The translations under genes were made by a program, and so were the position numbers. This document shows positions 56,941-64,000 of a DNA stretch of 64,000 nt, piece by piece. Position 1 is the first letter of the stretch, and each line of letters opens with the position of its first letter. The notes beneath the pieces are model-generated. The model was not told the DNA's origin, searched no databases, and saw only the letters and a program-made list of their open reading frames with translations. This DNA is from Methanosarcina mazei S-6 (lineage in GTDB: Archaea > Halobacteriota > Methanosarcinia > Methanosarcinales > Methanosarcinaceae), in contig NZ_CP009512.1 in the NCBI RefSeq assembly GCF_000970205.1, positions 2,294,001 through 2,358,000 of the forward strand, written 5' to 3'.

Positions 56941-58317
56941 ATGAGCGGAAATAATTACAAATCAATATGTTTCGTTGCTATGCCCTATGGCAAGAAAACT
57001 GATTTGGCAACTGGAACTGAAATCGATTTTGACAAAATATACGAATTGGCCATAAAACCAGCAATTGAGGAAGCGGGACTGGAGCCACTGCGTGGTGATG
57101 AAGAGCTAACCGGGGGGATAATTCATACTACAATGTTTGCCAGACTATTACTTTCCGAATATGTGGTGGCTGATTTAACTCTTTCCAATCCGAATGTATT
57201 TTATGAACTGGGAATCCGTCACGCCGTCAAACCATTTACTACAGTGCCCATTTACGCCAAAATACATCCTTTACCTTTTGACGTGGACATGATTAGGTCA
57301 ATTGGTTATAACCTAAAAAACGGTATTTTATCAAAAGAGGCAGCTGAAAATCTAAAATCTGAACTTATGAAACGTATTCAACAAGCGATCAACGGTCCTC
57401 AAGCAAATGACAGCCCACTATTTGAATTGATCCCGAAATTTCCAGCTATCAAGCTGCCATATGAAGTAACATACTCTTTTAGAGAACGAGTTAGCCACGA
57501 CAAAGAATTCCATGAACGTCTTGACAGGGCCAAATTAAAACCATCTAATCAGGAACGATGTGTGGCCCTTCTAGAGATTCAAGAAGATTTAGGTGATCTG
57601 AAAGGAACTCAAGCTAGTATACTCTTAGATCTGATGCTCTCTTTTCGCAGTGTGGAAGCCTGGAACAAAATGACGGATCTATGCGAAGCTTTTCCGGATT
57701 ATTTAAAAAATAATATCTTTGTACGTCAGCAGTGGGCCTTTTCACTAAATCGACGAAACAAACCGGGAGATAGGGATAAAGCTGTTTCACTTCTCACAGA
57801 GGTTATGAAAGAATATGGTCCCGATCCCGAGACTCTTGGTATATTAGGGCGCATACACAAGGACCGCTACCGTGAAGCAAAAGAGAAGGGGAGCATTATA
57901 GCTTTAGCTGCCCTGGACGAATCAATCTCTACTTATGTTGAGGGCTTCAATTCAGATCCTCGTGATTACTATCCGGGCATAAGTGCTATTACACTACTTA
58001 TCGAGAAAGGCGATAAAGAAGCTTTGAAAAAGGCGGAACAGCTAGCTCCGCTCGTAAGTTTTGCAGTGGCTCGCCGTGGTGGTGCCAGTTCCAATAACTA
58101 CTGGGATCTTGCTACGGTACTCGAACTTAATTGTATAAGCTGTGATTGGGTTTCTGCAGTAAACGTTTTACCAAAAGTTCTAGACAAAGCAAAAGAATCA
58201 TGGATGCTAAAGTCCACATCAGACAATCTTAGAATGTTAAAACAGGCTCGTATTTGCCAAGGTCATAATATAGAAAAGCTTCAAGAGATTATCAAAGAAT
58301 TCGAGAAATGTATATGA
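56941..58317 (+). CDS. Deoxyribosyltransferase-like (DRHyd) domain fused to TPR-S-like helical region
   Basis: A 458-residue protein. Residues 8-150 form a nucleoside-deoxyribosyltransferase-like Rossmannoid: ICFVAMPYGKKTD, DFDKIYELAIKPAIEEAGLEPLRGDEE, MFARLLLSEYVVADLTLSNPNVFYELGIRHA, with Glu89 in the NPNVFYELG motif as a candidate catalytic residue. The rest is alpha-helical and matches the DUF4071/TRAFs-binding class of TPR-like repeats, including KAVSLLTEVMKEYGPDPETLGILGRIHKDRY. In bacterial conflict systems such domains are proposed to sense or cleave nucleotides and to regulate caspase or TIR effectors. The caspase gene downstream supports this. Confidence 0.8.
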   Translation: MSGNNYKSICFVAMPYGKKTDLATGTEIDFDKIYELAIKPAIEEAGLEPLRGDEELTGGIIHTTMFARLLLSEYVVADLTLSNPNVFYELGIRHAVKPFTTVPIYAKIHPLPFDVDMIRSIGYNLKNGILSKEAAENLKSELMKRIQQAINGPQANDSPLFELIPKFPAIKLPYEVTYSFRERVSHDKEFHERLDRAKLKPSNQERCVALLEIQEDLGDLKGTQASILLDLMLSFRSVEAWNKMTDLCEAFPDYLKNNIFVRQQWAFSLNRRNKPGDRDKAVSLLTEVMKEYGPDPETLGILGRIHKDRYREAKEKGSIIALAALDESISTYVEGFNSDPRDYYPGISAITLLIEKGDKEALKKAEQLAPLVSFAVARRGGASSNNYWDLATVLELNCISCDWVSAVNVLPKVLDKAKESWMLKSTSDNLRMLKQARICQGHNIEKLQEIIKEFEKCI

Positions 58318-58322
58318 TTTAA

Positions 58323-58492
58323 AGTAAGTGGATTGACAAAGAGCTTGAAATTGCAGAGTACTTCGGAAGATCTATAATTGCTGTTGAACTTGGGGATCAG
58401 AAAGAACATCGAGAATTGTAAAAAAGCATGTTGATAGGATTGTAAAACGGGACACTGAGTCGATAGTTGGTGCAATAAGGGACTGGGCATAA
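58323..58492 (+). pseudogene. Remnant of a TIR-like (MTH538/ThsB-type) protein
   Basis: The reading frame SKWIDKELEIAEYFGRSIIAVELG, after a one-base shift near 58397, continues as SERTSRIVKKHVDRIVKRDTESIVGAIRDWA and a stop. This is the C-terminal third of the DUF1863/TIR-like family (kWIxKEIexA..gkpIIgV....aDxiVxWnteSIVxAIR). There is no start and a stop precedes it. It ends 12 bp before the caspase ATG, whose GGTGA lies at the remnant's end. Confidence 0.7.
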
Positions 58493-58504
58493 GGTGATGG
58501 AATC

Positions 58505-59452
58505 ATGAGAAAGGCATTGGTTATAGGAATCGATAATTATCCATACGATCCATTAGAGGGCTGTGTAAATGACGCTGTATGTGTAGCCAGTCTGCTGAAA
58601 AAAAATGAAGATGGATCCCCCAATTTTGATGTTAGATTAATTACAAATCCTTCAGACAGGCAGGATATTCCCACAACAAGAAGGTTAATTGATGAACTTT
58701 TTGAAACACATAGTGATGTTGCGTTATTTTATTACGCGGGTCATGGTTTGTTAAAATCTACAGGTGGGTATATTATTACATCAGATTTTAAAACACATAA
58801 TGAAGAAATACCTATGAGCGAAATCCTTGGGCTTGCAATAAACTCAAGAGCTAGAAGTAAAATCATTATCTTAGATTGTTGTCATGCGGGCTCCTTTGCG
58901 GAATCAAATCTTGGAAACTCAAGTATTTCCAATTTATGCGATGAGTTGACAGTAATTACAGCTAGTCGTGACATCGAGTCTGCAGATGAAATAGGTGGCC
59001 ATGGAGTATTCACTTCATTATTAATAGATGCACTTCAAGGGGGAGCTGCAGATATTCGGGGACATATCACAGCTGGAAGTATATATGCTTACATAGATTC
59101 TGCTCTTGGTGCCTGGGCACAAAGGCCTATTTTCAAAACAAATGTTTCCAGATTTGTACCAATCAGAAGCATAAATCCAAAAATACCACTTGAAAAGCTG
59201 AGACGAATTCCCAAATACTTCCCAAAGCCTGAAAATGAATTTAAATTGGATCCTTCTTATGAACCTACCTCAGAGAAGGCTATTGCTTTTAAATGTGAAA
59301 TATTCAAGGATTTACAAGATTTTGAATCTGAAGGTCTTGTAAAACCTGTGGATGAGGAGCATATGTATTATGCTGCAATGAATTCAAAATCTTGTAAGTT
59401 GACAGCTTTAGGATATCACTATTGGAGATTAGTCAAACAAAACAAACTATAA
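58505..59452 (+). CDS. Caspase-like cysteine protease (peptidase C14)
   Basis: A 315-residue protein. RKALVIGIDNYPYDPLEGCVNDA opens the p20-like domain; ALFYYAGHG gives His80 and IIILDCCHAGS gives Cys126, the catalytic dyad. GVFTSLLIDALQGGAAD closes the domain. The C-terminal 80 residues (FPKPENEFKLDPSYEPTSEK and a helical NSKSCKLTALGYHYWRLVKQ end) are a separate small domain found on stand-alone bacterial caspases. Cleavage of cell proteins as a self-destruct effector is the expected role. Base composition is more AT-rich than core genes. Confidence 0.9.
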   Translation: MRKALVIGIDNYPYDPLEGCVNDAVCVASLLKKNEDGSPNFDVRLITNPSDRQDIPTTRRLIDELFETHSDVALFYYAGHGLLKSTGGYIITSDFKTHNEEIPMSEILGLAINSRARSKIIILDCCHAGSFAESNLGNSSISNLCDELTVITASRDIESADEIGGHGVFTSLLIDALQGGAADIRGHITAGSIYAYIDSALGAWAQRPIFKTNVSRFVPIRSINPKIPLEKLRRIPKYFPKPENEFKLDPSYEPTSEKAIAFKCEIFKDLQDFESEGLVKPVDEEHMYYAAMNSKSCKLTALGYHYWRLVKQNKL

Positions 59453-59756
59453 TTTCATTTGGGCAAGAATTAATGCTCAAATCTTTATTGTCCAGCAATC
59501 AGGCTGGGTTATTTACTCACTTAATATGAGATGATCGTCTTACTCCTTCAGATTTAAACTTGCCTTTATACAGATGTTTTAATAATCGGCCTTCAAAATC
59601 GAATTCCTTACTATTTTATCTATTGCTACGCTTCTATATATCAAAACGAAAAATTTTTAATCGTTTGTGAAATGATGGTTTCTAATCAAAAGCTGATGGG
59701 ATCAAATCTAATTTTAAATTTCCGCATAATCGCAAAAGAGTTTTTAAAATGGTTCT
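59453..59756. other. Gap between caspase and TIR-like genes
   Basis: About 300 AT-rich bases without a coding frame or a ribosome-binding site for the next gene, which may have its own promoter (TTTTTAAAATGG just before it) and a short leader. Confidence 0.4.
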
Positions 59757-60524
59757 ATGGAAATTCCAGTGTTTCTTAGTTATGCAAAACCGTTCAATCA
59801 AAAACAAACAAAATTTATCCGCAAAGTTGCAGGACATTTAGTAGAAATCGGCTTCAAGCCGAGAACTCTAGGAATTACCGACAATAGTACTTCAGCACCA
59901 TTAATCAAAATAAGAGAGATAATAAATGAATCTCATGGGCTATTATCAGTTGCATTTAGGCGAGGTTTTATAGAAAAAGGAGTTGGTAAACCTAATACAA
60001 ATCTGACAGGACATACACAGTACGATATTTCTCAAAAATGGATTACAAGTCCCTACTGTCAAATTGAACCTTCCATGGCTTTCCAAATAGATATGCCCAT
60101 CTTGATTTTTAGGGAAAAAGGGGTTATTGATGATGGTATTCTAGAAAACGGTGTTGTTGGTTCCTATATACCTGAATTTGATCTTGATTCCTCAATTGAT
60201 CAATATTTTGAATCTTCTGAGTGGAATCAGTTAATAATTGAATGGAAAAAGTCTGTGCTAGAATATAAAAGATGGAAACAGTTCAAATCAAATGTGCTTG
60301 TTCACCACATAATAAGTTGCTGCATTTGTGAAGAAAAAGGGATAACATTCGATCATTTGTATAAGGCATTCAAAATGTCTATAGATAGAGAAGGTCTCAA
60401 TCATTACGAAATATTTGCGGCAATTATCGGTGCAGATGAGAGTTTTGAAAGTAGATATAAGATTCCGAATCATTCGCTACAATCTGATTATATCTTAATT
60501 TGCAATAATGTTTTCAAAGATTGA
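59757..60524 (+). CDS. TIR-like domain protein
   Basis: A 255-residue protein. VFLSYAKPFNQKQTKFIRKVAGHLVEIGFKPRTL matches the first strand and helix of TIR-type domains. INESHGLLSVAFRRG is the central strand, and TSPYCQIEPSMAFQIDMPILIFREKGVI corresponds to the SxxCxxE helix of TIR NADases, with Glu104 in the position of their catalytic residue. The C-terminal third is helical and not recognised. It is likely an NAD-cleaving or signalling partner of the caspase. Alternatively it is a nucleoside-hydrolase-like cousin. No ribosome-binding site is seen. Confidence 0.72.
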   Translation: MEIPVFLSYAKPFNQKQTKFIRKVAGHLVEIGFKPRTLGITDNSTSAPLIKIREIINESHGLLSVAFRRGFIEKGVGKPNTNLTGHTQYDISQKWITSPYCQIEPSMAFQIDMPILIFREKGVIDDGILENGVVGSYIPEFDLDSSIDQYFESSEWNQLIIEWKKSVLEYKRWKQFKSNVLVHHIISCCICEEKGITFDHLYKAFKMSIDREGLNHYEIFAAIIGADESFESRYKIPNHSLQSDYILICNNVFKD

Positions 60525-61027: not shown

Positions 61028-61729
61028 TTATTGAACAGGAACTCTAAATGTTAATAGTTCCTTTAAACTCCATATGTGATCAGTTATTCCTTCTGCCATA
61101 GCTGGAGTCCTTTGAAACCATTTTCTGTTTCCAGAATCTATTTTTAGCCTTAGAGACTTATGAGGTTTTATAAAGTTATACCATGCCTGGAATAAATCAA
61201 TAGCTTTCTGATGCATCCTTTTGGTTTTACTGAAATTCATTCCTTTTCTTATAAATCTTGCAAGAGATGTCCTTATCGTAAGGTTAATCCTTTCTGCATA
61301 AGAAGTTCCAATATAACTATCCGCATCAGCTCCAAGCATTTCGAATATCTCATCAGGATCTCCAAAGATGATACGTTGAACTGTTTCAACTACATAATTT
61401 TTTACCTTTTTCTTCAATACTTTGACATATTTTAAATCGTCAGGTGGAACCAGTTTAGGTAGCGGTTTTCTTCCGATACCTTTGTATTGTGGCAACTCGA
61501 TTTTACCATAAACGTTTATAAGTGCTTCTTCAAAGGCATCCCAATCATCTGAGGTAAATACAGGAATAGGAGAAGATGTGGAACGCATCTTCTCAACTTC
61601 TTTAAATAACTCTATAGCATCCTCAGCACTACGTTTTCCTTCATGATGAGAAAGGAGCAATCTTGTGTCACTTTTGATTGCTGTAAGTGAATACACATCC
61701 CCACACTCTTCAGAATCCTCGTCAGTCAC
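61028..61729 (-). CDS. IS1 family transposase, InsB-like catalytic frame
   Basis: A 233-residue frame with the DDE nuclease core: an Asp in VYSLTAIKSDTRLLL-type strand, PVFTSDDWDAFEEAL, and a Glu region in YIGTSYAERINLTIRTSLARFIRKGMNFSKT, ending KPHKSLRL. It has no good start of its own and is expected to be produced by -1 slippage on the A7 run at 61731-61737, joining IKKSKK to NVTDEDSEECG. Confidence 0.92.
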   Translation of the reverse strand: MTDEDSEECGDVYSLTAIKSDTRLLLSHHEGKRSAEDAIELFKEVEKMRSTSSPIPVFTSDDWDAFEEALINVYGKIELPQYKGIGRKPLPKLVPPDDLKYVKVLKKKVKNYVVETVQRIIFGDPDEIFEMLGADADSYIGTSYAERINLTIRTSLARFIRKGMNFSKTKRMHQKAIDLFQAWYNFIKPHKSLRLKIDSGNRKWFQRTPAMAEGITDHIWSLKELLTFRVPVQ

Positions 61730-62172
61730 ATTTTTTTGCTTTTTTTTATATATGACCAGATCTCATCAACCTCTACTCTCGTAAGATTAAGATTTTTGAG
61801 GAAATAAGTTGTAACTTCTTCTGCATGGGTTCCTGCAATCTCAAGCCATCTACAAATAGTGTCTTTACTATGTCCAGTAGCTCTTGCAACTCCACGAATA
61901 CTGCCTTTTTCAGGAAGCATAGCTATTGTCCTTAGAACTTCTTCATCTGGAGTGTTTAATTCGAAAAATATTGTACCTTTGGTTTCACTAAAACATTTTT
62001 TACAAGTTTTACATTTAAAAAGAGCATGGTTATTTTTACCATATCTTTCTTTAAGGACTATATTCCCTTGATTTTTAATTCCATAATCAGTGCAGTCTTT
62101 GTTCCAGCAAAAAAATTGTGAAAAATCGATTTCAGAAGTGATTAAGATGCCCCCAAATAATAATAGATTCAA
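61726..62172 (-). CDS. IS1 family InsA-like DNA-binding protein
   Basis: A 148-residue frame with a zinc-ribbon (CWNKDCTDYGIKNQG, CKTCKKCFSETKG) followed by a helix-turn-helix (GSIRGVARATGHSKDTICRWL) and the linker LTRVEVDEIWSYIKKSKK that leads into the catalytic frame. As in bacterial IS1, the unshifted product would bind the ends and repress. Confidence 0.92.
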   Translation of the reverse strand: MNLLLFGGILITSEIDFSQFFCWNKDCTDYGIKNQGNIVLKERYGKNNHALFKCKTCKKCFSETKGTIFFELNTPDEEVLRTIAMLPEKGSIRGVARATGHSKDTICRWLEIAGTHAEEVTTYFLKNLNLTRVEVDEIWSYIKKSKKM

Positions 62173-62229: not shown

Positions 62230-62497
62230 TTTTTTCACCTGAAAGAGATAATTTGTGAAAAATTTTATAAAGCTTACTAAATTCTATAAAGCTTACTAAC
62301 CTGATAACTTTTCATTTATATTTTAGATATTGCATCTAAAACAATAATTACATCTAAAACAATATTAGATAAGATAAAACTTGAAAAAAAGACATGCTCA
62401 GCTTTTATAGGCTGGTTTATTAATAATTCTTCTGCAATCGGTTTTCAGAATTTCTCCACGCTCCGATGCCGAATAGTCAGAAAACCCATGACAACTC
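62230..62497. other. Intergenic region right of the IS1 element
   Basis: About 270 AT-rich bases with a repeat of AAGCTTACTAA (62271, 62290) and AAAACAATA-type units near 62339-62370. No gene seen. Confidence 0.4.
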
Positions 62498-62508
62498 TTA
62501 AGTATAAG
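62498..62508 (+). promoter_or_regulatory. TATA-like box of the leader transcript
   Basis: TTAAGTATAAG is centred about 25 bases before the ATG of the leader peptide, the usual distance to an archaeal transcription start, so the transcript may begin on or next to that ATG (leaderless). Confidence 0.5.
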
Positions 62509-62528
62509 ATTCTTCTTCTACTCTCCTA

Positions 62529-62612
62529 ATGTTAAGTTCTACCACAAAGTACACGGAATCCGATTTTCCTGTATCCGTAGTAACTGTAGTAGTGGTAGTA
62601 CTATTCGCTTGA
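62529..62612 (+). CDS. Val/Leu-rich leader peptide of the acetolactate synthase gene, 27 residues
   Basis: ATG TTA AGT ... TGA encodes a peptide that opens MLSSTTKYTESDFP and ends VSVVTVVVVVLFA. Eight valines (seven GTA, one GTG) and a leucine (CTA) are packed into the last 13 codons; valine and leucine are end products of the pathway whose first enzyme is encoded 100 bp downstream. E. coli ivbL, upstream of ilvB, has the same design. There is no Shine-Dalgarno sequence, consistent with leaderless translation. The stop codon TGA lies inside the 5' arm of a hairpin. Translation has not been shown. Confidence 0.6.
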   Translation: MLSSTTKYTESDFPVSVVTVVVVVLFA

Positions 62613-62653
62613 GCAAGAAAAAGAAATCATTCTGGCTCAAGTGTGCTGTTTTT
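62608..62653 (+). terminator. Candidate attenuator hairpin with T-run
   Basis: CTTGAGC (62608-62614) pairs perfectly with GCTCAAG (62635-62641) over a 20-base loop. A TTTTT run follows at 62649-62653. The 5' arm overlaps the stop codon of the leader peptide, so a ribosome there would block the stem. ACTATTC (62600-62606) can also pair with GAATAGT (62666-62672), a possible competing or enclosing structure. Confidence 0.5.
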
Positions 62654-62712
62654 GGTTATTATACTGAATAGTGCATTCTGTGCCAGTTTTGTTTCTTTCC
62701 GGGTGTTTTAAG

Positions 62713-64000
62713 ATGAAAGAAATGAATGGAGCAGAAGTCCTGATTAAGTGTCTGGAGGACCTTGGTGTCAAACATATCTTTGGCTATACGGGAGCAGCAA
62801 TACTTCCGGTATTCCATGCCCTCAGGCATAGTGATATTGAGATTATAGTTAATTCCAATGAGCAATCTGCAGCATTCAGCGCGGCAGGCTATTCACGGTC
62901 AAGTAACCGGGTAGGTGTGGCTATAGTTACATCCGGACCTGCCATAACTAACACGCTCACGAGTGTTGCTGATGCTTATGGGGACAGCATTCCCCTGCTT
63001 GTATTTGCAGGGCAGGTCCCTGAGCATAAGATAGGCACCGATTCCTTTCAGCATATTAACGTAAGAGGTATCTTCAGGGATGCAGCCAAAAAGGTCATAC
63101 AGCTCTCCAATGGTGATGACATAGAAACCATAATCAAGGATGCCTATTACTTTTCAAAGTCAGGAAAACCCGGACCTGTAGTCATAGATTTTCCTCTTGA
63201 CAAACAGATAAAAAACCATGAGTATCATGGTATGGACGTCAAAAGGTTCGAGGGAAGTTATCATGATGATAGACATCTGTCTGAAGGCCAGTGTGAAAAT
63301 TTTTTTAAGCTGCTGCTCAACTCCAGAAGGCCCCTGCTCTATCTCGGAGGCGGTCTGAATTCTGAGTCAGGAAGCCAGGCAGTCAGGGAATTCAATGAGC
63401 TTTTCGGAATACCTTCTGTCAATACACTTATGGCAAAAGGCGTCGTTGACGAAAGGCATGACCTGAACCTTGGAATGCTGGGAATGTTCGGTACACCTTA
63501 TGCGAACATGCTCATACAGGAGAACGACTTATTCTTCGCCATCGGAGTAAGATGGGATGACCGGGTTGCGGAAAAGGTCGGGTTTGCAATAGGCACTGAC
63601 ATAGCTTATATTGATATTAATCCTGAGAAAATGCATCAGATAAAAATCGAGCGCAGCCCGAAATTCACATTCATAGGAGATGCTGCCACAGCGCTACGCG
63701 ACCTGCTGAACTATGCCAGGAAGCATAATATCCGTCTTGATATTCGGGAATGGCAGATACGTGCAAGATACCTGAAAAAGTCGTGGCCTCTGAATTACAA
63801 CAGATCATCCGAATACATACAGGCTGCCAAGGTAATTTCAATGCTTGCAAACCACGTTGACGAAAGCACAAAGATAACTACTGGTGTAGGTAACCACCAG
63901 ATGCTTGCAGCTCAGTACCTGTCAATGCAATGCCCAAAATCTTTCATGACTTCCGGCTCTTTTGGCACAATGGGCTTTTCCCTGCCCACAGCAATTGGTG
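62713..64000 (+). CDS. Acetolactate synthase-like thiamine-diphosphate enzyme (3' partial)
   Basis: 429 codons are visible. MNGAEVLIKCLEDLGVKHIFGYTGAAILPVFHAL and VNSNEQSAAFSAAGYSR (Glu of the ThDP pocket) are the N-terminal PYR domain, TSGPAITNTLTSVADAYGDSIPLLVFAGQVP its core, and LNLGMLGMFGTPYANMLIQENDLFFAIGVRWDDRV the central domain. The Pyr-binding domain begins at the window end (TTGVGNHQMLA, then GSFGTMGFSLP). Acetolactate synthase joins two pyruvates (or pyruvate and 2-oxobutyrate) at the start of valine, leucine and isoleucine synthesis. GGGTG precedes the ATG. The valine-rich leader supports an anabolic role; a regulatory subunit would lie outside the window. Confidence 0.9.
   Translation, partial: MKEMNGAEVLIKCLEDLGVKHIFGYTGAAILPVFHALRHSDIEIIVNSNEQSAAFSAAGYSRSSNRVGVAIVTSGPAITNTLTSVADAYGDSIPLLVFAGQVPEHKIGTDSFQHINVRGIFRDAAKKVIQLSNGDDIETIIKDAYYFSKSGKPGPVVIDFPLDKQIKNHEYHGMDVKRFEGSYHDDRHLSEGQCENFFKLLLNSRRPLLYLGGGLNSESGSQAVREFNELFGIPSVNTLMAKGVVDERHDLNLGMLGMFGTPYANMLIQENDLFFAIGVRWDDRVAEKVGFAIGTDIAYIDINPEKMHQIKIERSPKFTFIGDAATALRDLLNYARKHNIRLDIREWQIRARYLKKSWPLNYNRSSEYIQAAKVISMLANHVDESTKITTGVGNHQMLAAQYLSMQCPKSFMTSGSFGTMGFSLPTAIG

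Follow-up and report, generated by a model that had tools for sequence, protein, structure and literature searches.

A Val-rich leader ORF and a candidate three-way RNA switch ahead of an acetolactate synthase gene in Methanosarcina mazei

The leader ORF, its promoter and the acetolactate synthase gene

The window analyzed here is a stretch of 64,000 nucleotides from Methanosarcina mazei S-6, and it ends inside a gene for an acetolactate synthase (ALS). The gene starts with an ATG at 62713, occupies 62713–64000 on the plus strand and extends beyond the window end; its product of 570 amino acids has TPP-enzyme domains. The best NCBIfam match, TIGR00118 (biosynthetic acetolactate synthase large subunit), scores 505.7 bits against a curated cutoff of 538, implying that the protein is a divergent relative, and the closest solved sequences are acetolactate synthases. 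This ALS is the second in the genome, its paralogue, the main ilvB, being about 38–40% identical. The gene stands alone: a small subunit was not seen beside it, and its neighbors vary among species. A Shine-Dalgarno-like sequence, GGGTG, precedes the start at 62701–62705 and reads GGGAG or CGGAG in most relatives.

A first-pass annotation of this DNA had reported, upstream of the ALS gene, a 27-codon Val-rich ORF, a TATA-like box before its ATG, a perfect 7 bp hairpin with the stop codon in its 5' arm, and a T5 run followed by the ALS gene. We find all of these, on the plus strand. The ORF (62529–62612; MLSSTTKYTESDFPVSVVTVVVVVLFA) ends in VSVVTVVVVVLFA and a TGA stop at 62610–62612, and eight Val codons and one Leu codon stand among its last 13. 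The Val/Leu run spans 62571–62603, with a core of VVVL at codons -6 to -3, counted back from the stop (62592–62603). The pattern exceeds chance: five consecutive GTN triplets, in any frame and on both strands, occur at only four places in the 4.14-Mb genome. The remaining five-Val runs, which were set aside, lie in an apparently unrelated frame of 51 codons, in a frame of 56 codons and in a repetitive one of about 260 codons.

The TATA-like box of the leader promoter is CTTAAGTATAAG (62497–62508). It includes AAGTA (62500–62504), and its center lies about 27 nt 5' of the leader ATG; among 39 relatives, 35 have a distance of 26–27 nt, the usual TATA-to-start distance in archaea. Mean pairwise identity is 0.75 in the box, compared with 0.41 just 5' of it. 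Between the leader ORF and the ALS gene, no TATA box is conserved across the compared relatives. The near-fixed spacing from TATA box to ATG suggests that the transcript should start at or beside the leader ATG, and the ORF is therefore predicted to be leaderless. Leaderless transcripts make up about 15% in these methanogens (PMC7531240; PMC5378194).

Some surroundings of the locus also deserve mention. Two overlapping minus-strand ORFs at 61028–62172, one of them matching an IS1 transposase, end about 325 bases 5' of the leader TATA box. Further upstream, 56941–60524 holds genes for a protein with a MAP3K TRAFs-binding domain and a TPR-S sensor domain, a caspase-domain protein and one further, unassigned protein, possibly a defense or cell-death cluster. 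As for the main ilvB, no ORF rich in branched-chain amino acid (BCAA) codons recurs across species in its leader among 22 Methanosarcina loci. By eye, its 5' region (L002, L010–L031) carries a recurring hairpin-like motif, ACTGGA...GTGAG..TCCAGT, some 50–110 bases before the gene.

Conservation and distribution of the leader

In all 46 leaders compared, which represent 42 distinct ORFs, the ORF is open and the Val run, the stop codon within a stem and the hairpin recur; the frameshifts or missing Val runs that would have counted against the first-pass annotation do not occur in them. The ORF has 22, 23, 24, 25, 27 or 30 codons, so that its length changes by whole codons only, while the distance from its stop to the ALS gene (92–131 nt) takes all values modulo 3. 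Its 3' end is nearly always a Val run, Leu, any residue, Ala and TGA. The last ten codons hold on average 7.0 Val, Leu or Ile codons, whereas the two alternative frames average 1.0 and 1.4 (42 distinct relatives). Mean pairwise identity is 0.78–0.90 in the Val run and hairpin. Thus, the expectation that the functional elements are kept while the flanks drift holds for the Val codons, the stop in the stem and the drifting 5' flank, but not throughout for the U-run, which is broken in some relatives.

Codon by codon, the 42 distinct ORFs have Ala at -1 without exception; at -3 they have Leu in 39 cases, through CTA, TTA, CTG and CTC, and Ile, Ser and Pro in one case each. Val occupies -4 in 40 of them and both -5 and -6 in all. 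Codon -7, which lies outside helices H0 and A described below, is Val, Leu or Ile in 42 of 42; codon -8 is Val in 33, Leu in 4 and Ala in 5, and codon -10 is Val in 34. Because codons -6 to -4 also sit in helices, the fact that they hardly vary does not prove selection on the codons; codon -7 and the synonymous Leu codons at -3 are better evidence. Beyond the Val/Leu run, the leader peptide is not conserved (pN/pS about 0.86), and we rejected peptide conservation as proof of translation on this ground. Bacterial leader peptides are likewise not conserved outside their regulatory codons.

A close ALS orthologue is present in 7 of 31 Methanosarcina species, the other six proteins being 90–93% identical to the one studied here, and orthologues of 74–85% identity occur in Methanolobus, Methanococcoides, Methanohalophilus and Methanohalobium. 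A survey of 238 genomes of the class gave strong ALS matches (E at or below 1e-150) in 44 of them. Strong matches to the leader RNA (E at or below 2e-27) fall in exactly these 44, and the next best genome reaches only E = 4e-5. Because the leader model, R1, derives from sequences of this very set, matches within it are expected, and the informative part is that strong matches are lacking elsewhere. The pairing of leader and ALS spans six genera of Methanosarcinaceae and varied gene neighborhoods. In an Ignavibacteriae metagenome genome whose ALS homologue is 59% identical (L060), the 330 bases upstream hold no such ORF.

Outside the genomes with ALS, a covariance-model search gave weak matches only, four of which were inspected. 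One of these (L141, in genome G035) is an apparent remnant of a deleted leader with a truncated ALS 3' of it: the leader ORF is gone, and the TATA box nearly abuts GGTTTCTTTC and the truncated ALS start. Two others (L142 and L146) are an unrelated start region in Methanohalophilus, and L145 is uninformative. Three Methanolobus genomes carry second leader copies (L096, L143 and L144), each before a gene for a predicted membrane protein; these copies are degenerate, and two of the three have lost the ATG. In two further genomes the leader is kept although the ALS sequence carries stop codons: in G066 (L128) the gene has one in-frame TAG, and in G060 (L071) the ALS match covers residues 227–568 with one TGA and one TAA.

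Competing helices and an occluding ribosome

Four predicted structures of the leader RNA, which we call H0, A, B and C, were tested. The hairpin noticed earlier is the upper stem of hairpin A, in which CTTGAGC (62608–62614), holding the leader TGA, pairs perfectly over 7 bp with GCTCAAG (62635–62641). A lower stem, AGTAC (62597–62601) with GTGCT (62643–62647), extends it and ends one base 5' of the U-run. This T5 run (62649–62653), a possible termination signal, has at least four T in most relatives and is broken in a few, for example L047, L072 and L073. Helix B has three parts: an outer one, AAAGAAAT (62620–62627) with 62691–62698; an inner one, CTGGC (62632–62636) with GCCAG (62682–62686); and an apical one, TGTGC (62642–62646) with GTGCA (62671–62675), whose 5' arm overlaps the lower stem of A. 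As RNA these read AAAGAAAU:GUUUCUUU, CUGGC:GCCAG and UGUGC:GUGCA. The pyrimidine-rich segment GTTTCTTTC (62691–62699) is the 3' arm of helix B (62691–62698) and also the 5' arm of helix C (62691–62699), in which GUUUCUUUC pairs with the first ALS codons (GAAAGAAAT, 62715–62723), leaving the Shine-Dalgarno-like sequence in a 15-nt loop. Finally, when no ribosome is on the ORF, the start of the ORF can pair with the Val run in helix H0 (CTACCAC at 62539–62545, codons 4–6, with GTGGTAG at 62592–62598).

Bases 62635–62636 and 62643–62646 are common to A and B, and 62691–62698 to B and C; the mutual exclusion of A and B is well supported by these comparisons of sequence. The first-pass annotation had described the upper hairpin only and suggested that it may act by sequestering sequence. 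The hairpin is conserved, but by itself it is not the device, being part of a predicted three-way switch with B and C; these alternative helices, the lower stem of A and helix H0 all go beyond that earlier description.

Pairing was tested on an alignment (A3) of 44 distinct sequences. In the upper stem of A (CUUGAGC:GCUCAAG) all cells are paired, with one both-sided change from GC to AU, in L122. The lower stem (AGUAC:GUGCU) is 92.7% paired and changes from GC to AU in Methanosarcina and from GC to UG in L111 and L112. In the outer part of B, three pairs out of the six counted show both-sided changes, in several lineages; the inner part is 95.9% paired and has a UG to GU double change, and the apical part is about 93% paired. 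H0 is paired in 98.4% of cells, with zero both-sided changes. When B is taken together with H0, 96.1% of cells are paired and 19 are both-sided; slid controls give no more than 6 such cells, and shuffling gives a mean of 3.4. The A and C set is 97.2% paired and has 15 both-sided cells, compared with at most 4 when slid. When mapped on a tree, the both-sided changes of A and B fall on several separate branches. In L046 and L070, which are Methanococcoides-type rows, the alignment register of B is shifted, making their both-sided cells less secure. Helix C shows little covariation despite about 97% pairing, and it overlaps coding sequence that is similar in the bacterial homologue L060, which has no such leader, so its pairing may be partly fortuitous. 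Predicted energies for the window sequence are near balance (-16.3 kcal/mol for A with C and -15.3 kcal/mol for B), and helix C alone has -6.1 kcal/mol. A search of Rfam, including T-boxes, riboswitches and ilvB motifs, gave four matches at E up to 10; each of them falls far short of its gathering score, and they belong to unrelated families.

To represent a ribosome, we removed the RNA 5' of a given boundary in 45 leaders and folded the remainder, counting the boundary from the T of the stop codon. Without a ribosome, A together with C is the default fold. At boundaries of -12 to -2, the mean probabilities are 0.75–0.84 for A, 0.10–0.19 for B and 0.80–0.88 for C; at 0 they are 0.32, 0.35 and 0.66. 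From +2 to +10, A falls to about 0, with B at 0.49–0.52 and C at 0.48–0.51. B then declines again as C rises: 0.41 and 0.57 at +12, 0.15 and 0.83 at +14, 0.03 and 0.93 at +16, and 0.00 and 0.94 from +18. If the leading edge lies 13–15 nt beyond the first base of the A-site codon, which is an assumption rather than an archaeal measurement, the window for B of +2 to +10 places the A-site between codon -4 and about codon -1, and a ribosome on the stop codon gives a boundary of about +13 to +15, at which B is largely lost. Only about half of the sequences have a P(B) above 0.5. A second folding run with a longer 3' flank gave the same direction. If the ribosome pauses at one of the early Val codons (-10 to -5), A can still form, and severe starvation could thus close the switch. 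Mean openness around the ALS start was dropped as a readout, since helix C holds this site in its loop.

A candidate attenuator, its rivals and its known counterparts

We conclude from the comparative evidence that the leader, the switch and the ALS gene are a real unit, and that its most likely function would be to sense Val- and Leu-tRNA. The first-pass proposal that ribosome position reports valine and leucine supply is supported, the sensing step itself being a part that we infer. Specifically, we think it probable that the leader is a leader-peptide attenuator, in which the position of a ribosome on the leaderless ORF would read the charging of Val-tRNA (and Leu-tRNA), with A and C as the OFF state and B as the ON state. 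Transcription would start at or beside the leader ATG. When Val-tRNA is plentiful, the ribosome would reach the stop codon and leave; A would close over the stop codon before the U-run, and C over the ALS ribosome-binding site, giving reduced translation and perhaps termination at the U-run. When Val- or Leu-tRNA is scarce, the ribosome would pause within the final VVVL stretch, where its front would cover the 5' arm of A and leave the GAAA(C/U) segment free. Helix B could then form, taking the 3' arm of A and the 5' arm of C, looping out the U-run and freeing the ALS start.

Our assignment of the two states follows from the fact that the U-run comes after A but sits in the loop of B, and that B dismantles C. 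Because the last helix of the switch can close off the ribosome-binding site of ALS, some or all of the control may act on translation instead of through a bacterial-type terminator. Archaeal termination needs a U-tract, not a hairpin (PMC8716108, PMC7289017). The polarity of the switch, the pausing of the ribosome, the action of helix C in vivo and any termination are, like the sensing step, what we infer from these patterns.

The same sensor could operate with its roles reversed: A would be the ON state, formed upon a stall at any upstream Val codon, and B the OFF state, formed with the ribosome at the stop, as in region 3:4 of trp. Stalls at -10 to -5 do leave A intact; all Val codons would then contribute, in keeping with the length of the run, and the 2:3 versus 3:4 geometry resembles trp. 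Nevertheless, stalling would make little difference, given that A with C is the default even when no ribosome is present; the U-run lies 3' of A and inside the loop of B; helix C at the ALS start is opened by B; and B is weak with the ribosome on the stop codon (see the values at +12 and +14 above). We consider this reversal unlikely. Another reading, which we hold to be improbable, dispenses with the ribosome as sensor: a structured RNA, either a riboswitch or a protein-binding element, would respond to something else, and the Val codons would be a by-product of pairing, whether or not the ORF is translated. It would account for the helical location of the most invariant Val codons (-6 to -4), for the presence of GTGGTAG in both H0 and A, and for the lack of conservation in the rest of the peptide. 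It accords poorly with a codon -7 that is invariably Val, Leu or Ile outside H0 and A, with a Leu at -3 kept through four different codons, with length changes by whole codons and a nearly fixed spacing from TATA box to ATG, and with the absence of a fitting Rfam family.

Finally, the ORF might encode a small hydrophobic peptide with its own function, the RNA structure being a separate matter. The C-terminal stretch is indeed hydrophobic, and Methanosarcina mazei translates numerous small proteins (PMC11456600). Against this stand the absence of purifying selection over most of the peptide and of any Pfam match, the occurrence of strong leader matches without ALS only as degenerate copies, and a stop codon that is built into the switch; we regard this explanation as very improbable. 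Returning to the attenuator with A and C OFF and B ON, we lean toward classing it as an archaeal ribosome-mediated attenuator, in which a leaderless start, a stop-codon hairpin and a ribosome-binding-site lock would make up a three-way switch, open only upon a pause within a few codons of the stop.

If this is real, translation of a leader ORF can govern the gene that follows it in archaea too, and the locus offers a small system open to experiment in a genus for which genetic tools exist. It would bear on whether a following ribosome can attenuate archaeal transcription, and also on the origin of such switches, given a bacterial relative of this ALS (L060) without such a leader. The first-pass annotation knew of no established attenuation of this kind in archaea; likewise, we found no case of leader-peptide sensing of tRNA charge in archaea in the open-access literature.

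Bacterial leader peptides on which the position of a ribosome reports the charging of tRNA are textbook knowledge. Two traits of the trp/ivbL class of attenuators are present here: an ORF of pathway codons before ALS, and mutually exclusive helices, one of which overlaps the ORF end. Escherichia coli ivbL-ilvBN is similar in having a short Val-rich ORF directly 5' of acetolactate synthase, competing helices and a U-run. In contrast, the locus studied here is archaeal, its ORF is predicted to be leaderless, its stop codon lies inside hairpin A, an extra helix C covers the ALS ribosome-binding site, and archaeal RNA polymerase terminates without needing a hairpin. The ilvBNC attenuator of Corynebacterium, or ilvB-II motif, also combines a BCAA-rich uORF and overlapping terminator and antiterminator hairpins with an acetolactate synthase target (PMC10272879, PMC11857589), and initiation on leaderless mRNA has been discussed for it (PMC11857589); it differs in its bacterial terminator, its sequence and helices, and its operon with ilvN and ilvC, whereas the archaeal ALS is alone. 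The ilvB-OMG and Leptospira ilvB motifs are proposed attenuators in which the uORF 5' of ilvB has many BCAA and Thr codons, and all examples of the Leptospira motif have at least three consecutive Val codons (PMC10272879). These motifs are bacterial, and no related Rfam family matched the archaeal region at E up to 10. Leaders of the erm type, which sequester a ribosome-binding site, offer a further likeness, as there a stalled ribosome shifts the pairing and frees the site; their signal is a drug, whereas that of the archaeal switch would be tRNA charging.
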